Origin: Syntrophomonadaceae bacterium
GTDB lineage: Bacteria > Bacillota > Dethiobacteria > DTU022
Reading direction: 5' to 3'
DNA length: 43,624 nucleotides
Assembly (NCBI GenBank): GCA_007119615.1
Contig: SKPH01000006.1
Coordinates: 1 to 43,624, forward strand
Positions 22,243 through 31,449 of this stretch are shown here, piece by piece (position 1 is the stretch's first letter; each line of letters opens with the position of its first letter). Made by a program: the position numbers and the translations under genes. Under the pieces are notes generated by a model that saw only the letters and a program-made list of their open reading frames with translations, made no database searches and had not been told where the DNA came from.

Positions 22243-22289
22243 CCCGTATCCTCCCAAATGCCATACCAGCTTTCGCCTTGGTTGTTTTA

Positions 22290-22319
22290 ATTATATGGTG
22301 CTTATAATTCAGTTTACAA
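22290..22319 (-). promoter_or_regulatory. Sigma-A-type promoter for recN
   Basis: On the minus strand TTGTAA (22319-22314) and a perfect TATAAT (22295-22290) are separated by 18 bases, about 48 bases upstream of the recN ATG. I see no LexA-type operator overlapping it, although recN is SOS-controlled in some Firmicutes. Confidence 0.7.
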
Positions 22320-22382
22320 AAACTCACATGCTCCTACACGCCGGATCATAATCCCTTGTTCCGGACCTTAATATCTGCTTAA

Positions 22383-23304: not shown

Positions 23305-24141
23305 TTAATTTTTCTTTCCCAGTAATTCATGATGAGCCTGCACAACGGCCCGATCAATGCAGCCGGTATAGTCCTCCCGGCAACTGCACCCGGACTTCCG
23401 GTTAAAATCAAAATAAGCAAAATACTCAATGTTACCCTTAGGTCCGGGCCACCTGGAGAAAGTTATATCCCGGAAGCAGTATCCGGCTCGGCAGGCCATA
23501 TCTAAGGTATCTTTAAGAATCCTGCGGTGCAGTTCGGGGTCTCGGATAACACCTTTTCCTTTGCCGGCATCTATCCGGCCCGCTTCAAACTGTGGCTTAA
23601 TCAGGGCAAGTACAGCGGGAATAGTCAGTTTACTTAATACAGGCAGTACTTTGGAGAGCGAGATAAATGATACATCTACAACTGCCAGATCCGGCAGCCG
23701 GTCCAAATCACTGCGCGTAAGATTGCGGATATTAAACCGTTCCATCACAGTGACCCTGGAATCATTGCGCAGGCTCTGGTCAAGCTGCCCGTAGCCTACA
23801 TCAAGGGCAAATACAAATTTGGCTCCTTTTTTCAACAGGCAATCAGTGAAACCTCCGGTTGATGAGCCGACATCGAGAACAACCAGACCCCGCACATCGA
23901 TCTGCAGCTCATGCAGCGCACCTTCAATTTTTAATCCGCCGCGGCTAACATAAGGGTTTTCAGGTTTGCGCAGGTTGATCTCCACACTGCTGTCATGGAG
24001 TGTGCCCGGTTTATCGCTAACCCGACCGTTTACAATAACATTTCCGGCCATTATTTCAGCCTGAATACGGCTGCGGCTTAAATCGGGCCGTCTTTCTGCG
24101 AGCAGCAGATCCAGGCGTTCCTTTCGTTCCCGGGCGCTCAA
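23305..24141 (-). CDS. tlyA: TlyA-family rRNA methyltransferase / hemolysin-like protein
   Basis: TlyA proteins methylate rRNA ribose 2'-OH groups. The best start is TTG 24141, overlapping the dxs stop (TTGA) with AAAGGT five bases upstream. This gives 278 residues; the open frame upstream is dxs in another frame. An S4 domain (LDLLLAERRPDLSRSR, about 8-65) precedes an FtsJ-like methyltransferase domain with SAM motif VLDVGSSTGGFTDCLL and catalytic-region residues in DVSFISL and ALIKPQFE. Its substrate in this organism is not known. Confidence 0.93.
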   Translation of the reverse strand: MSARERKERLDLLLAERRPDLSRSRIQAEIMAGNVIVNGRVSDKPGTLHDSSVEINLRKPENPYVSRGGLKIEGALHELQIDVRGLVVLDVGSSTGGFTDCLLKKGAKFVFALDVGYGQLDQSLRNDSRVTVMERFNIRNLTRSDLDRLPDLAVVDVSFISLSKVLPVLSKLTIPAVLALIKPQFEAGRIDAGKGKGVIRDPELHRRILKDTLDMACRAGYCFRDITFSRWPGPKGNIEYFAYFDFNRKSGCSCREDYTGCIDRAVVQAHHELLGKKN

Positions 24142-26030
24142 GTCAGACCTTTTGCCGCCTGTCCACCGGCAAATGCAAGAGCCACATTGTAAATGCCGTC
24201 TGCGTCCAGATGACAGACGGAGAGCATCTGTGCCCTGGTTCCATGGCCGACAAAACAATCGTCTATCCCCAAACGTTTAATGGGCAGAAACATTCCTCTT
24301 TTCTCCAGCAGCTCCATAATGCCGCTGCCGAATCCTCCGCCCAGAACATTTTCTTCTACAGTAATCACCCGGCCGCATTTCCTGGCCCAGCCTAAAATCA
24401 GATCTTCATCGAGAGGTTTTATGAAACGGGCATTGATTACTGCCGTTTTTATCCCCTGCCAGAATAACTTTTCCGCAGCCTCAAGGGCTGAATTAACGAT
24501 TGTTCCTGCTGCAATAATCAGTAGATCTTCACCCTGCCGGATCACTTCTCCCCGGCCCCAGGGAAGAATCCTCGGTTTGGTTAGTTCGACTCCCAAAACT
24601 TTATCGCGCGGATACCTGATAGCTACAGGGCCGCCCACATGGTTAAGAGCTGTGGCAAACATATGTTGGAGCTCATCTTCGTTTGCAGGAGCCATTACCG
24701 ACATATTCGGCATAGTGCGCAGATAGGTAAGGTCGAAAAGCCCCTGGTGGGTTTCACCATCTTCTCCGATAATACCAGCCCGATCTACAGCAAATACAAC
24801 CGGCAGATCCTGCAGACAGGTATCATGTAATATCTGATCGTAAGCGCGCTGTAAGAAGGTGCTGTAAATGGCAACTACCGGCCGCATACCGCCCGCAGCC
24901 AGGGCTGCTGCAAAGGTGACGCCGTGCTGTTCAGCGATACCGACATCGTAAAATCTACCTGGAAACTCCTTAGAGAATTTGTTCAGGCCGGTACCGGCAG
25001 TCATTGCGGCAGTTATGGCTACTATATCCGGGTTTTCACGACCCAGTTGCAGCAGTGTCCGGCCAAATATATCTGTATAGGTCGGGCTTTTCTTTTCTTT
25101 AAGAGGCAGGCCGTTGTTTAAATCAAAAGGTCCGATTCCGTGAAATATTTCGGGGGATTTCTCTGCGTAATGATATCCTTTCCCTTTTTCGGTTACAACG
25201 TGAACTAAAACAGGACCGCTCATTTTATCGGCCTGTTGCAGTATATTCATGATCAGAGATATATTATGGCCGTCTACAGGGCCAAAATAGGTAAACCCAA
25301 GTTCTTCAAAAAGCATTCCCGGCATAATCAGGTATTTCAATCCGCCCTTAATTCTCTCAGCCGAATTCACCATCTGTTCGCCAACCAGCGGAATCCTGCC
25401 TACGAATTGCTCAAAATCTTTTTTCAGGCGGGAATACTTCGGATCGGAGCGAATACGCCCCAGGTAAGAGGACATGCTGCCTACATTAGAACTAATTGAC
25501 ATCTTGTTGTCGTTAAGAATGACCAGCAGGTTTGCCTTGATATGGCCGGCGTGGTTTAGTGCCTCGAATGCCATTCCTCCGGTGAGTGCTCCATCGCCTA
25601 TCACAGCAGCCACTTTATAGTCATCACCCTTGCAGTCACGGGCTCTGGCCAAACCGAGAGCAGCCGAAATTGAGGTGCTGCTGTGGCCGGTTAAAAAAGG
25701 ATCGTGCTCGCTTTCCGATGGTTTTGGAAAACCGCACAACCCCCCTTGCTGGCGCAGGGTCGGGAACTGGTCCCAGCGGCCGGTCAGGAGCTTATGCGGG
25801 TAGCTCTGATGCCCGACATCCCAGATCAGACGATCCCTGGGACTGCTGTAGTTACTGTGCAGGGCTACTGCCAGTTCAACAACCCCGAGGCTTGCCGCAA
25901 GGTGGCCGCCGTTATCGGCAACCGTTCTAATCATATATTCACGAATTTCCGCAGCAGCTTCGATCAGCTGTTCAGGGCCCAGTGTTTTCAGGTCCTGCGG
26001 CAGCTTTAAACTGCTGAGTAGCTCTCCCAT
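24138..26030 (-). CDS. dxs: 1-deoxy-D-xylulose-5-phosphate synthase
   Basis: Dxs starts the MEP isoprenoid pathway from pyruvate and glyceraldehyde 3-phosphate. It is thiamine-diphosphate dependent. It has 630 residues from ATG 26030. The ThDP motif GDGALTGG...NDNKMSIS is present, as are the GHSSTS N-terminal motif and the transketolase-like EQHGVTFAAALA. It overlaps tlyA by four bases and follows oapA by 18 bases, matching the ole-oapA-dxs order of Bacilli. Confidence 0.97.
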   Translation of the reverse strand: MGELLSSLKLPQDLKTLGPEQLIEAAAEIREYMIRTVADNGGHLAASLGVVELAVALHSNYSSPRDRLIWDVGHQSYPHKLLTGRWDQFPTLRQQGGLCGFPKPSESEHDPFLTGHSSTSISAALGLARARDCKGDDYKVAAVIGDGALTGGMAFEALNHAGHIKANLLVILNDNKMSISSNVGSMSSYLGRIRSDPKYSRLKKDFEQFVGRIPLVGEQMVNSAERIKGGLKYLIMPGMLFEELGFTYFGPVDGHNISLIMNILQQADKMSGPVLVHVVTEKGKGYHYAEKSPEIFHGIGPFDLNNGLPLKEKKSPTYTDIFGRTLLQLGRENPDIVAITAAMTAGTGLNKFSKEFPGRFYDVGIAEQHGVTFAAALAAGGMRPVVAIYSTFLQRAYDQILHDTCLQDLPVVFAVDRAGIIGEDGETHQGLFDLTYLRTMPNMSVMAPANEDELQHMFATALNHVGGPVAIRYPRDKVLGVELTKPRILPWGRGEVIRQGEDLLIIAAGTIVNSALEAAEKLFWQGIKTAVINARFIKPLDEDLILGWARKCGRVITVEENVLGGGFGSGIMELLEKRGMFLPIKRLGIDDCFVGHGTRAQMLSVCHLDADGIYNVALAFAGGQAAKGLT

Positions 26031-26048: not shown

Positions 26049-26621
26049 TTACTCCGTCTTTTTTATCCAGCTTAAAGGTCTTTCCAGTCGGGTTATCAAT
26101 GACCCGACGACCAGGATCACTTCAGTTGAATGGTTTATGGCAACTATCTTACCCCAGGCTTTTCCTCCCACGGTCAAAGCGGCAACCAGAGCTGTCAGCA
26201 AAATACCGAGGTAGAATTCGGTCCGGGCTAAAGTAGCATCGGCAACAAGCCTGAAAACAATAATAGCGGCCAGTGTGCCGCTGACAACCCCGCTGATATC
26301 TCCGGCTACATCATTACAGAAATTTGCCACCTGCTCAGCATTTTTTACCAGGTAGACGCCGCGTTTTGCCCCGACAACTCTCCGGGCTGCCTTGGCGTTG
26401 AGGGGCCCTATTTTAGCTGCAGCAGCGGCAGTACCGATGAGATCAAAAATTACACCTACAAAGATGACAAATAATAAAATTGCAAACGCAGCAATAAGTG
26501 ACTGGATCTCACTGAGTGAATATTGTGTGATAAAACCAAAAATGATGGCCAGAATAAAGGTCCAGATTGAAATTATTATAACCCAACGTGTCCGTCGACG
26601 CTTTTTCCTGATTTTAGCCAA
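26049..26621 (-). CDS. oapA: OLE RNA-associated membrane protein A
   Basis: The 190-residue protein starts at TTG 26621, six bases after AAGGTGA. It has a basic N-terminus (KIRKKRRRTR) and about four hydrophobic segments (roughly 13-32, 40-64, 110-126, 135-152). It carries a DxxxD pair, D104 and D108, in FCNDVAGDISG, which matches the signature known for OapA. OapA binds OLE RNA and locates it at the membrane; in Halalkalibacterium it is linked to cold, alcohol and Mg2+ stress. It lies directly downstream of the RNA and upstream of dxs, the expected order. Identity comes from context, size and motif; no alignment was run. Confidence 0.87.
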   Translation of the reverse strand: MAKIRKKRRRTRWVIIISIWTFILAIIFGFITQYSLSEIQSLIAAFAILLFVIFVGVIFDLIGTAAAAAKIGPLNAKAARRVVGAKRGVYLVKNAEQVANFCNDVAGDISGVVSGTLAAIIVFRLVADATLARTEFYLGILLTALVAALTVGGKAWGKIVAINHSTEVILVVGSLITRLERPLSWIKKTE

Positions 26622-26639
26622 ACCTCATCACCTTTGTAC

Positions 26640-27213
26640 AAAAAACATAAGTGGTAACAAACCAGGTAAACTTTGCGGCTTAGGTCCAGCAGGATTTCCC
26701 ACATGGTCACCTGTCGTTGCCGAGCAGGCAGTTCCCTTTTAAGACTATGCCCGCTGTGTCACCAACAGCAGAACTGGATTACCACTTAGCTCACACTTTA
26801 ATCCCTGGCTTGTTTCTCTTTCGAGAGCAGTCTAGAAGATTTCCCCCCTGACGCCTGGTCTCCCCTAGCCTCTTTTGCAGAGTAGGTTTAAGGTATTTGC
26901 ATTCCCTCCACCTATTCCACTCAAGGCAGGCTACACTGCACACAGCTTTTGTACCGCATGCAGGTTTCTTACCCAAGCAGTAGCCTTTTGTTTATTAAAC
27001 AATACGCCACCGTCATTGGGTCTCCACGAAGGCAGGGTCAACGCCTACATGCCATTGTAGATCGCCCCGTCCTTCTTAACTCCCAGCACCAGCTCCCGAC
27101 TGGGCGTCGGCAGCCACCACCAGGAACTTCATCGGTGTGCCCTTAACGGATTTTTAGGCCCGTTTTCGGAGAGGGGCGGCAACTAGAATACTGCACCACT
27201 TATGCTCGTTGCT
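26640..27213 (-). ncRNA. ole: OLE RNA (ornate, large, extremophilic), about 575 nt
   Basis: This 667-base gap (26622-27288) has no plausible gene but is densely structured. It lies between folD and oapA, exactly where OLE RNA sits in other Firmicutes. Helices I can pair include 5' stem 27208-27212 with 27179-27183, hairpin 27096-27110, hairpin 27045-27060, hairpin 26988-27002, stem 26980-26985 with 26929-26934, a GAAA-tetraloop hairpin (26815-26826), hairpin 26753-26769, and a closing 3' stem AAGTGGTAA/TTACCACTT (26779-26787 with 26649-26657) followed by six T (26645-26640). Length suits the roughly 600-nt class. It has its own promoter. Ends are estimates. Confidence 0.85.
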
Positions 27214-27220
27214 GTGGAAT

Positions 27221-27249
27221 ATTATAGCATATCCGGGCTTTCTTCTCAA
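27221..27249 (-). promoter_or_regulatory. Sigma-A promoter for OLE RNA
   Basis: On the minus strand TTGAGA (27249-27244) and TATAAT (27226-27221) are separated by exactly 17 bases, with the -10 box preceded by ATATGC. Transcription would start near 27213, at the base of the first OLE stem. It begins 40 bases after the folD stop, so the RNA need not depend on read-through from folD. Confidence 0.8.
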
Positions 27250-27288
27250 CCTTACCGGAATTGACCGCTAAGCGATTTTACGGCGATT

Positions 27289-28227
27289 TTATAACAGCCC
27301 ATGGTTAATTTTGCATGCTTTCAGGGCGTTTTTCAACAACATCCGGTTAGTTACCGAGCCAACACCTTTAGGAACAGGGGATATGGCCCTGGTCTTATCT
27401 TTGACCGCGTCGAAGGATACATCGCCAACAGTTTTAGTCTTCGGTTTGCCCTTTTCATTGAGTACCGGTTCACCTTTTTCATCAACTACTTTTACCCGGT
27501 TAATTCCGACATCAATTACAATTGCCCCTTCTTTAACCTGCTCAGGACCGATTAAGTCTGCTTTGCCGGCTGCTACGATCAGGATATCGGCCCCCGTGGT
27601 GTGCTTCTCAAGGTTGCCCTTCATGCTGGTAAAGACATGCGTAACACTGGTAGTCGCATTTCGGTTAAGAGCGAGGAAGGCCACAGGTTTACCGACAATG
27701 TTAGAGTGGCCGACAACAACAATCTCAGCACCTTCAAAGAAGTCTTTTGGATCCATATTTTCGTCATTACGGGCAAAGCGTTCCAGAATTTCGATTACCG
27801 CCGCCGGAGTTGCCGGTGGGAAGGTAACCTCGCCCAGGGCGAGTTTACCCATGTTGAAAGGATGGAAGCAGTCAATATCTTTATTAACATCAATTGAGTT
27901 TATTACAACCGTATCCGATATCTGTTCGGGAAATGGGCGCAGGGGTAAAATTCCGCTGACCGTCGGATCGGCATTCAGTTTCTGTACAATATTGATAACT
28001 TCTGCTTCTGTTACATCCGCGGGAGGGTTTTCGTTAACATAGGCAAATCCGGCTTCTTCACAAAACTTTTCTACCTGCCCTCTGTACATGCGGGAACCGA
28101 AATCATCCCCAACCAGGAGGGTGGCAATCCCCGGGGTAATACCTTTGGCTTTAAGCTCCTCCGTTTCTTTGATAATTTCTTTCATGATCTCTTCGCCAAT
28201 CGCTACACAGTCAATTACTTTTGTCAT
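27289..28227 (-). CDS. folD: FolD-family methylene-THF dehydrogenase lacking cyclohydrolase residues
   Basis: The preferred start is ATG 28227 (MTKVIDCVAIG), ten bases after AAAGGGG, giving 312 residues, longer than the usual 285. FolD normally oxidises 5,10-methylene-THF with NAD(P) and then hydrolyses methenyl-THF. An ungapped match to E. coli FolD around residues 32-61 places Val52 at the catalytic Lys of YVxxK (here Y48-RGQV) and Leu96 at the catalytic Gln (GILPLRPFP in place of GILVQLPLP). The Asp of KDIDCFHP and the nucleotide loop VGHSNIVGKP remain. It is probably dehydrogenase only. The neighbouring fchA would supply cyclohydrolase. An insert with VDEKGEPVLNEKGKPKTK is unusual. Confidence 0.88.
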   Translation of the reverse strand: MTKVIDCVAIGEEIMKEIIKETEELKAKGITPGIATLLVGDDFGSRMYRGQVEKFCEEAGFAYVNENPPADVTEAEVINIVQKLNADPTVSGILPLRPFPEQISDTVVINSIDVNKDIDCFHPFNMGKLALGEVTFPPATPAAVIEILERFARNDENMDPKDFFEGAEIVVVGHSNIVGKPVAFLALNRNATTSVTHVFTSMKGNLEKHTTGADILIVAAGKADLIGPEQVKEGAIVIDVGINRVKVVDEKGEPVLNEKGKPKTKTVGDVSFDAVKDKTRAISPVPKGVGSVTNRMLLKNALKACKINHGLL

Positions 28228-28344
28228 CTTACTGTTCCCCTTTCTCAGTTTAAAATGATGATCTTCAGACATACATGCAACCTTTTTAATCGAAGTAATA
28301 AATGTGACCGGATTTAATTTGAGCCGCCGGTTTTCACAGCCTGC

Positions 28345-28980
28345 TTAAACCGATCTGAATTTGCTAATTACGCTATTCAGGGTTTCATCGGCAATTTTGC
28401 CGCCTTCCTCGATCAGCTGATCCATTTCTGCTGTTGTTTCATTTATAAAATTTTCATCTTTTATTGCGCCCAGGTTGATCAATACATTCAACTGGCCGCT
28501 GATCAGGGCTGCTTTTAAAAAAGCGACTCCGCAGCCGACATCAGAAATAGCAAGTTTTGTTCCAATCTGGCCCATCCGTTCATGGATCTTAATTCCCTGG
28601 TAAGCTTTTCGCATAATCTCCATCGGAACGGAGCATGCTTCTATTGAGCATTCTTCCATAACTTTTGCCTTGTGTTCGGCCTGGTCGGGTGTGTCTTTCG
28701 GCAGGCCGTACGCTTTTGAAAGCGGTTCAAATACCTCTGCATCCCTGTCGATTAATTTCTTGAGATCTTCGATAATCTGGTTACCCTGCTCCAGCAAGCT
28801 ATTTACTTCATCTTCAACATCGGCAAATTTCTTTTTCCCTACGGTCAGGTTGCCGACCATATTCGACAGGGCCATACCGATAGCGCCGCCCATTGCGGCC
28901 GCCCCGCCTCCCCCGGGAACCGGGGCTTTCGAAGCCAGAACATCGAGAAAGTAACTGCAGCTTTTGTCTGCCATTGCCAT
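28345..28980 (-). CDS. fchA: Methenyl-THF cyclohydrolase (FTCD-C family)
   Basis: FchA hydrolyses 5,10-methenyl-THF to 10-formyl-THF. ATG 28980 (MAMADKSC) follows GGAGGG at seven bases, giving 211 residues. The family signature near the N-terminus, LASKAPVPGGGGAAA, and the helical remainder match formiminotransferase-cyclodeaminase C-terminal domain proteins. It lies 117 bases upstream of a FolD that appears to lack cyclohydrolase residues, so the two are likely consecutive steps of one-carbon metabolism. Confidence 0.9.
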   Translation of the reverse strand: MAMADKSCSYFLDVLASKAPVPGGGGAAAMGGAIGMALSNMVGNLTVGKKKFADVEDEVNSLLEQGNQIIEDLKKLIDRDAEVFEPLSKAYGLPKDTPDQAEHKAKVMEECSIEACSVPMEIMRKAYQGIKIHERMGQIGTKLAISDVGCGVAFLKAALISGQLNVLINLGAIKDENFINETTAEMDQLIEEGGKIADETLNSVISKFRSV

Positions 28981-29010
28981 AATAGAACCCTCCTTCAGCA
29001 TTTTCGATCC

Positions 29011-29085: not shown

Positions 29086-29970
29086 CTACCTCGTCCGGTA
29101 GATCATTTTGTTTGCCAGTTCCTTTAACAGCCCGGAAGGGCGATCAAGTTTATCCAGCGCCGATACAGCATCGATATATAACGCTTCGGCTCTTCTTCGG
29201 GCTTCTTCAGAACCAAGCAGGGCCGGATAGGTAGCTTTGGACAGGATCTGGTCTGCACCGGCCGGCTTGCCAAGCTCCGCTGTTGTGCTTTCGTAATCGA
29301 GCAGATCATCGATAATCTGGAAAGCAGGCCCGATCCTGGAAGCATAAGCATTCAGGACTTTGATTTGTTTTTCGGAAGCGTTCGCCGCGATCGCGCCGCA
29401 CACTACTGCAGCTCGCAGTAGTGCTCCTGTCTTCATTATTGCGATTTTGTCAACCTGGGCGGCATCCAGGGCAGCTCCTTCGGCTTCAAGGTCGAGGACC
29501 TGTCCACCGATCATCCCTTCCACTCCCGCCGCTCCGGCCAGCTCGCCCGTGATCCGGATCGCCCGTTTCTCCCTGCCTGCCCGGGAACCGTAGCAGGCTA
29601 TTGTTTCAAAAGCGAGGGTAAGCAGGGCATCTCCGGCCAAAATGGCTACCGCTTCACCGTAAACACGGTGGCAAGCCGGTTTACCGCGTCTCAGATCGCT
29701 GTTGTCCATTGCCGGCAGATCATCGTGAATCAGGGAGTAGGTATGTATATATTCCAGGGCACAGGCAACATCAATTATCGATTCGTCTTCCGCCCCAAGG
29801 GTCTCGGCAACGGCAAGCGCCAGGATGGGCCTGAGCCTTTTGCCGCCTGCTTCCAGGCTGTAACGCATTGCATCAACAACTGCAGCAGGGGCGGACCGAG
29901 GCATTCTTTCTGCCAGGGCCCGATCAATCTTAGCTTTTTCCTGCTCCAGGTATTTCCCGATTTCAATCAT
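29086..29970 (-). CDS. ispA: Geranyl/farnesyl diphosphate synthase
   Basis: This enzyme elongates allylic diphosphates with IPP. It has 294 residues. Its ATG overlaps the xseB stop (ATGA). The first Asp-rich motif is DDLPAMD, with the two-residue insertion usual for bacterial farnesyl diphosphate synthases, and the second is DDLLDYE. GGKRLRP is also conserved. It draws on IPP/DMAPP from the Dxs-IspH-Fni route. xseB-ispA order is typical of Firmicutes. Confidence 0.96.
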   Translation of the reverse strand: MIEIGKYLEQEKAKIDRALAERMPRSAPAAVVDAMRYSLEAGGKRLRPILALAVAETLGAEDESIIDVACALEYIHTYSLIHDDLPAMDNSDLRRGKPACHRVYGEAVAILAGDALLTLAFETIACYGSRAGREKRAIRITGELAGAAGVEGMIGGQVLDLEAEGAALDAAQVDKIAIMKTGALLRAAVVCGAIAANASEKQIKVLNAYASRIGPAFQIIDDLLDYESTTAELGKPAGADQILSKATYPALLGSEEARRRAEALYIDAVSALDKLDRPSGLLKELANKMIYRTR

Positions 29971-30236
29971 GAATCGTCTTCCCCAATCTCTTCTTCCGGT
30001 TCTTCGTAAATATCCTGTTCAAAAGGCTGCCGATCTTCTTTAAGTAAATATTCAACCCTGTACTCAATTTCAGCCAGCTTTTCACGGCAATAACGGGAAA
30101 GGGCAATGCCTTCCTGGAAAGCGGAAAGTGATTCTTCCAGGGGTATCTCGGTATCTTCAAGGCGGTTGACCAGCTCCTCCAACCTCGCAATCGCTTCTTC
30201 GTAAGTCATCTTCTCAATTTTTTTATTCGCCACCAA
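29967..30236 (-). CDS. xseB: Exodeoxyribonuclease VII small subunit
   Basis: XseB has 89 residues and wraps XseA in the single-strand-specific exonuclease VII. The core MTYEEAIARLEELVNRLED and ESLSAFQEGIALSRYC are family-typical, followed by an acidic tail (EEPEEEIGED). Starts at TTG 30236 and the adjacent GTG 30233 both suit GGAGGG upstream. It overlaps xseA by 14 bases and ispA by four. Confidence 0.95.
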   Translation of the reverse strand: MVANKKIEKMTYEEAIARLEELVNRLEDTEIPLEESLSAFQEGIALSRYCREKLAEIEYRVEYLLKEDRQPFEQDIYEEPEEEIGEDDS

Positions 30237-31449
30237 TTACGCCCTCCTCAACTTTCTCCGTACGGCAGTAAGCCCGCCCGTCCCTGAAGCTAAGCTGAAG
30301 CAGGCGGCCCAAACGGACATCATGTACCGAGCGGATTATATTCCCCTCTTCATCCCGGCAGTAGCTGTATCCCCGTTTCATAACCTTTAGAGGGCTGTAG
30401 CCTTCCAGCTTGTCTGTCTGAGCAGACAACTTCATTCCTTTATACTGCAAGACCCGGACAATCTCACGGCGCAATTTAACATCCAGCTGCTTCAACTGTT
30501 CCCCGGAAAATTTCAGGCGTTTTCCGGGCAGGCGAAAAAACCGTTCGCTGACAACATGATCGAGTTTCTGCTTTTCCTGCTGGTTCCGTCTTTTAAGCGC
30601 CGTGGCCGCTCGCTCCCGCAGGCGGTCCAGCTTAAGGAGCAGTTCTCCTTGATCCGGAACAGCCACCGCCGCTCCGGCTGTAGGAGTCGGAGCTCTTAAA
30701 TCAGCGGTAAAGTCGGCAATGGTAAAATCAGTTTCATGCCCCACAGCAGATATTATTGGTAATTCAGACCGGTAAATAGCCCTGGCCACAGCTTCTTCAT
30801 TAAAAGGCCACAAGTCTTCAAGTGAACCGCCCCCGCGGGCCAGGATAATCAGGTCGATATCGCTGCGCCGGTTAAGCAGATCCAAACTCGTGATAATATC
30901 CGATGCCGCTCCGGCACCCTGAACCAGGCTTTCCACCACCAGCAGATGAATATGGGGAAACCTTTTTTTTATTGTAGTCAGCATATCCTGCAGAGCGGCG
31001 CCAGTCGGTGAGGTCACAAGGGCAATTTTTCGGGGCAGCAACGGGATCGCTTTTTTGGTTTCTGCCTTAAAAAGGCCTTCAGCTTCAAGCTTTTTTTTCA
31101 GCTGCTCAAAAGCAAGAAAAAGCGAACCCATTCCGGCCGGTTCCATCTCTACAACATAAAGCTGATAAACACCGTCGGGTTCATAAACCGAAATATTGCC
31201 GTGAAGAATCACTTCCATCCCATCTTCCGGTTTAAACGGACAGCGTGCGTTATCACGGCGGAAAAAAACACAACGCAATGCGGAAGAGCTATCCTTGAGG
31301 GTAAAATACATGTGCCCCGATCGATGGTGTTTGAAATTTGACAGCTCCCCGGCCACCCGCAGATCCCTCAGGCGGGGATCACCGTGAATTAAACCCTTGA
31401 TGTAGCGGTTTATTTCAGAAACTTTTAAAACTTGAAGGTTGTTTTGCAT
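30223..31449 (-). CDS. xseA: Exodeoxyribonuclease VII large subunit
   Basis: XseA is the catalytic subunit and degrades single-stranded DNA. It has 408 residues. The N-terminal OB-fold contains VAGELSNFKHHRSGHMYFTLKD. The catalytic domain carries LVTSPTGAALQD, ILARGGGSLEDLWPFN and SAVGHETDFTIAD, with a coiled-coil region after that. It overlaps xseB. A two-gene oxidoreductase and a TsaD-like gene separate it from nusB. Confidence 0.96.
   Translation of the reverse strand: MQNNLQVLKVSEINRYIKGLIHGDPRLRDLRVAGELSNFKHHRSGHMYFTLKDSSSALRCVFFRRDNARCPFKPEDGMEVILHGNISVYEPDGVYQLYVVEMEPAGMGSLFLAFEQLKKKLEAEGLFKAETKKAIPLLPRKIALVTSPTGAALQDMLTTIKKRFPHIHLLVVESLVQGAGAASDIITSLDLLNRRSDIDLIILARGGGSLEDLWPFNEEAVARAIYRSELPIISAVGHETDFTIADFTADLRAPTPTAGAAVAVPDQGELLLKLDRLRERAATALKRRNQQEKQKLDHVVSERFFRLPGKRLKFSGEQLKQLDVKLRREIVRVLQYKGMKLSAQTDKLEGYSPLKVMKRGYSYCRDEEGNIIRSVHDVRLGRLLQLSFRDGRAYCRTEKVEEGVIGGE

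Follow-up and report, generated by a model that had tools for sequence, protein, structure and literature searches.

The region between folD and dxs in the 43,624-nucleotide stretch of DNA analysed here (the window), which comes from a metagenome-assembled genome (MAG) of a Syntrophomonadaceae bacterium, almost certainly carries a complete ole gene with oapA directly after it, judging from its sequence. A cmscan search of the whole window gave a tRNA at 7-80 and an OLE RNA at 27215-26635 as its two matches; the latter matched RF01071 with 465.2 bits (E 1.5e-133), against the gathering cut-off of 50 bits that served as our threshold for calling OLE, and it covered model positions 1-616 of 616 with no truncation. 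The OLE RNA gene proposed in the preliminary description was thus confirmed end to end, and two features recorded there were also found: a gene-free gap of 667 bases (26622-27288) between folD, which ends at 27289, and the next open reading frame (ORF), which starts at 26621, and a GAAA tetraloop hairpin (TCTC-GAAA-GAGA, 26815-26826). The source genome (1.06 Mb in 66 contigs, ~70% complete) holds one copy of OLE. One hairpin of this copy is ~38 nt shorter than in the RF01071 model, the corresponding model positions being absent, which could be read as the mark of a degenerate copy or pseudogene. We regard that reading as so improbable as to be negligible, since intact relatives have comparable scores (431-500 bits), most relatives in the order are similar in length and the highly conserved stretches of the RNA are intact; synteny likewise speaks against it. 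The locus therefore belongs to the already well-described OLE class of large non-coding RNAs of bacteria, and its assignment is correct but ordinary. The features of the region are listed in the table.

Table. Features of the ole-oapA region, in coordinates of the window
Feature	Position	Strand	Basis or remark
OLE RNA (RF01071)	26635..27215	-	cmscan; expected transcript from ~27215/27213 to ~26640
-35 (TTGAGA) of ole promoter	27244..27249	-	pattern scan
Extended -10 (TGCTATAAT) of ole promoter	27221..27229	-	pattern scan
P1 5' arm	27195..27205	-	pairs with 26645-26655; covariation
P1 3' arm	26645..26655	-	pairs with 27195-27205; covariation
T-run after P1	26640..26645	-	sequence; six T directly after 3' arm
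oapA Shine-Dalgarno (AAAGGTGATG)	26626..26635	-	sequence
oapA	26049..26621	-	190 aa, TTG start; orthologues adjoin OLE
dxs	24138..26030	-	TIGR00204, 847 bits
folD	27289..28272	-	PF02882, PF00763
fchA-like (formiminotransferase-cyclodeaminase domain)	28345..29001	-	PF04961, 218 bits
ispA (polyprenyl synthetase)	29086..29970	-	NF045485, 343 bits
xseB	29967..30236	-	TIGR01280
xseA	30223..31449	-	TIGR00237, 478 bits

OLE was found in 50 of the 60 genomes of the family and order, with the source genome included, and in 31 of the 34 good ones, whereas none of the 14 control genomes contained it. In four relatives (G031, G045, G046 and G057) the match was fragmented or ran into a contig end; the conserved OLE RNA may confuse metagenome assembly in such relatives. 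As expected for OLE, the window's ole clusters with folD, xse, ispA and dxs, as assigned with Pfam and NCBIfam. The order given in the preliminary description, folD-xseAB-ispA-ole-oapA-dxs, has to be corrected, as these assignments yield xseA-xseB-ispA-fchA-folD-ole-oapA-dxs, followed by tlyA-nadK-recN. A methenyl-THF cyclohydrolase-like gene (the PF04961 match in the table) is inserted between ispA and folD, in which the cluster differs from that of H. halodurans. In other species argR is reportedly often located near ole; no argR was found between nadK and recN (22258-22382) in the window.

The gene next to ole had been described as encoding a membrane protein with a DxxxD pair and as preceding dxs, and its identification as oapA was supported by orthology, synteny and predicted fold. 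A profile search with this ORF gave no Pfam or NCBIfam match, no OapA model being met in either collection, and no PDB sequence match was obtained; orthology and synteny are therefore what identifies it as OapA. Thirty loci of the order, the window's included, extend far enough to reveal what follows OLE, and each of them has an orthologous OapA-type ORF and then dxs there. Scanning public genomes with an OapA alignment yielded 552 OapA relatives, and OLE adjoined oapA in 19 of the 20 OapA loci tested, including those of Halalkalibacter, Gracilibacillus and Dethiobacter (H. halodurans OapA was left out of the compared loci). The window's OapA shares 37-81% identity with the relatives compared. 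In the scan of public genomes, its nearest relatives came from Syntrophomonadaceae MAGs with CSSed isolate names. Residues D104 and D108 were invariant in 42 of 42 aligned OapA proteins; in H. halodurans OapA the DxxxD pair is D100/D104 (PMC9723947). The protein thus resembles known OapA as a basic membrane protein of ~190 aa with an invariant DxxxD, encoded directly after ole, and no difference of note was observed. At the oapA Shine-Dalgarno, many members of the family retain AAAGGTGAT. The one exception among the 20 loci was L118, from Peptococcaceae bacterium BICA1-7, in which ispA directly precedes oapA with no OLE between them (L118 2200-3050); the OLE of this genome sits elsewhere (L153), with no oapA within 1.5 kb on either side. 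By eye, this copy is flanked by TetR- and AraC-like ORFs. Such a separation of ole from oapA is rare.

The predicted ole promoter is conserved and of the housekeeping type. The TTGAGA-17-TATAAT pattern noted previously is present: TATAAT, at 27226-27221, is separated from TTGAGA by a 17-base spacer and preceded by TG, the two hexamers giving 11 of 12 consensus matches. In all 31 loci of the order an extended -10 (TGnTAT[AG][AC]T) occupied the same place, at most 41 bases before the terminal helix (mean in shuffles, 0.24). A TTG-type -35 lay 16-18 bases ahead of the -10, agreeing with the consensus at 4.3 of 6 positions on average in the order and at 2.5 in shuffles, and a comparable -10 was seen in most wider Bacillota loci among the matches listed. 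In H. halodurans, ole is part of a long operon and has its own promoter as well (PMC9723947).

The ends of the RNA are joined by a helix that is also conserved. Its 3' arm, ACCACTTATG (26646-26655), pairs with the 5' arm, CATAAGTGGT (27195-27204), and when the terminal arms were taken as 14 bases, 13 of 14 positions paired, compared with a mean best of 10.1 and a maximum of 13 in shuffled 3' regions of relatives. Eight or nine of the inner nine pairs were kept in 40 of 41 wider loci, with bases changing on both sides. As the 3' arm in this comparison had been picked by best pairing, a partner-swap control was run: across 23 distinct arms, true partners formed 7.8 Watson-Crick pairs and swapped partners 5.9, and none of 2000 permutations reached the true value, a test in which sequence relatedness is not fully removed. 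The terminal helix of OLE (loci L071-L147) covaries strongly, yet RF01071 of Rfam treats its arms as single-stranded, and the model could be improved by it. The published stem numbering, which runs from P2 upward, suggests that this helix is P1. With its conserved promoter and terminal helix, the locus represents a complete OLE member from an uncultured lineage and leaves existing knowledge of the class unchanged.

A closing 3' stem followed by six T had been reported at this end of the gene, and both were found. A T-rich stretch after P1 is common in the order, where most members have one, and rare in Bacillaceae; H. halodurans OLE differs from the window's in this respect. The further proposal that the T-run separates OLE from the oapA mRNA is unproven, and we do not regard it as shown: a simple scan found no hairpin terminator at the OLE 3' end, and the T-run, far from being a general feature of the family, is mostly confined to the order; moreover, the T-run is preceded by a long-range helix instead of a hairpin, and no good promoter was found that would serve oapA alone. 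A related reading, in which the terminal helix and T-run act as a clade-specific terminator that ends transcription and releases OLE, with oapA expressed by read-through, would account for ACCACTTATG being followed directly by six T and for the T-rich stretch in most members of the order. We consider it unlikely, if far from negligible: the two halves of the stem lie ~540 nt apart, so that this is no usual hairpin terminator, the scan detected none, and operon transcription with presumed processing has been described for H. halodurans ole (PMC9723947). Its more specific form, that P1 and the T-run constitute in the order a long-range intrinsic terminator that closes only once the RNA has folded, so that OLE folding would set the amount of oapA, appears to us quite improbable.

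The same features could also suit a leader that regulates oapA-dxs in cis, for instance a large riboswitch or attenuator in which the helices would control read-through into oapA, given that the RNA immediately precedes oapA, is served by a promoter of its own and closes with a stem and a T-run. The full-length match is, however, to a trans-acting and abundant RNA family; in BICA1-7, oapA lacks OLE ahead of it and OLE lies elsewhere without an adjoining oapA; and the T-run lacks conservation beyond the order. A leader is accordingly highly improbable, and we keep to the reading that a complete ole gene precedes oapA here. A palindrome, TTTGTACAAA (26633-26642), lies between the T-run and the ribosome-binding site of oapA; many relatives keep it as TTTGTACAAAGGTGAT.

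A full OLE ribonucleoprotein (RNP) had been proposed for this organism, and a search of the source genome for OapB and OapC supported the OapB part of that proposal. OapB is encoded on another contig (C56:14153-14437), between map and infA; its only PDB match is OapB (7k9b, E 1.4e-6), and it is 69% identical to the KOW protein of a relative, an orthologue that also lies between map and infA and itself matches PDB OapB. This protein was found by a protein search, a KOW search with Pfam having failed to show it. No OapC (YbxF) or other L7Ae-family protein was found in the ~70% complete source genome, and 'full' therefore exceeds the evidence. Because rpsL, nusG and rplX could not be found in this assembly either, the region that would encode OapC was most simply not assembled. 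An L7Ae-family protein is present in all 34 good relatives, and in the one relative examined an OapC candidate, with YbxF as its best match, lies between rpoC and rpsL. With universal genes lacking from the assembly as well, the negative search was not taken as evidence that OapC is absent. A search for bS21 in the same incomplete genome was likewise negative. Compared with the OLE RNP of H. halodurans, the system shares the full-length RNA, the adjoining oapA with dxs behind it, an ole promoter and a genomic oapB, and it differs in that OapC was not seen, in a genome that is itself incomplete.

Studies in H. halodurans, together with cryo-EM, have placed OLE at the membrane through OapA, with OapB and OapC as partners, an RNA dimer and stress phenotypes (PMC12265935, PMC12286853). 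By homology, the RNP of the source organism may work in a similar way. OLE would be transcribed from its own promoter as well as within a longer operon transcript, and would then fold, dimerise and be held at the membrane by OapA; OapB would bind at P12.2/P13 and OapC, probably, at the k-turn. The resulting particle may aid adaptation to cold, alcohol, Mg2+ or poor carbon sources.

The predicted structure of OapA bears on what such a particle might do. The AlphaFold model is all-helical (pLDDT 84), and its best Foldseek matches were to the CNNM protein MtCorB (probability 1.00, but with a weak E of 1.4e-2 and TM of 0.49-0.56), with CorC further down. The OapA proteins of three relatives reached the Pfam cut-off for CNNM. 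Both lines of evidence agree with the published proposal of a resemblance between OapA and the CNNM domain of MpfA (PMC11332333). The MpfA/CorB/CorC (CNNM) Mg2+ transporters have the fold nearest to that predicted for OapA, which differs from them in having no CBS or CorC domains. The ~70% complete source genome yielded no full-length CNNM protein, a result that matches a published anticorrelation. The most likely mechanism, in which we place roughly even confidence, is the published hypothesis that OapA would be a divalent-cation transport unit of CNNM type in which the RNA, instead of the CBS/CorC protein domains, serves as the control domain. In a metatranscriptome of soda-lake sediment, OLE RNA made up ~1% of the non-coding RNA at the level of the community (PMC6704655). 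Because of this abundance and the CSSed names of the nearest OapA relatives, expression of OLE in organisms of this kind is likely, the link being an indirect one.
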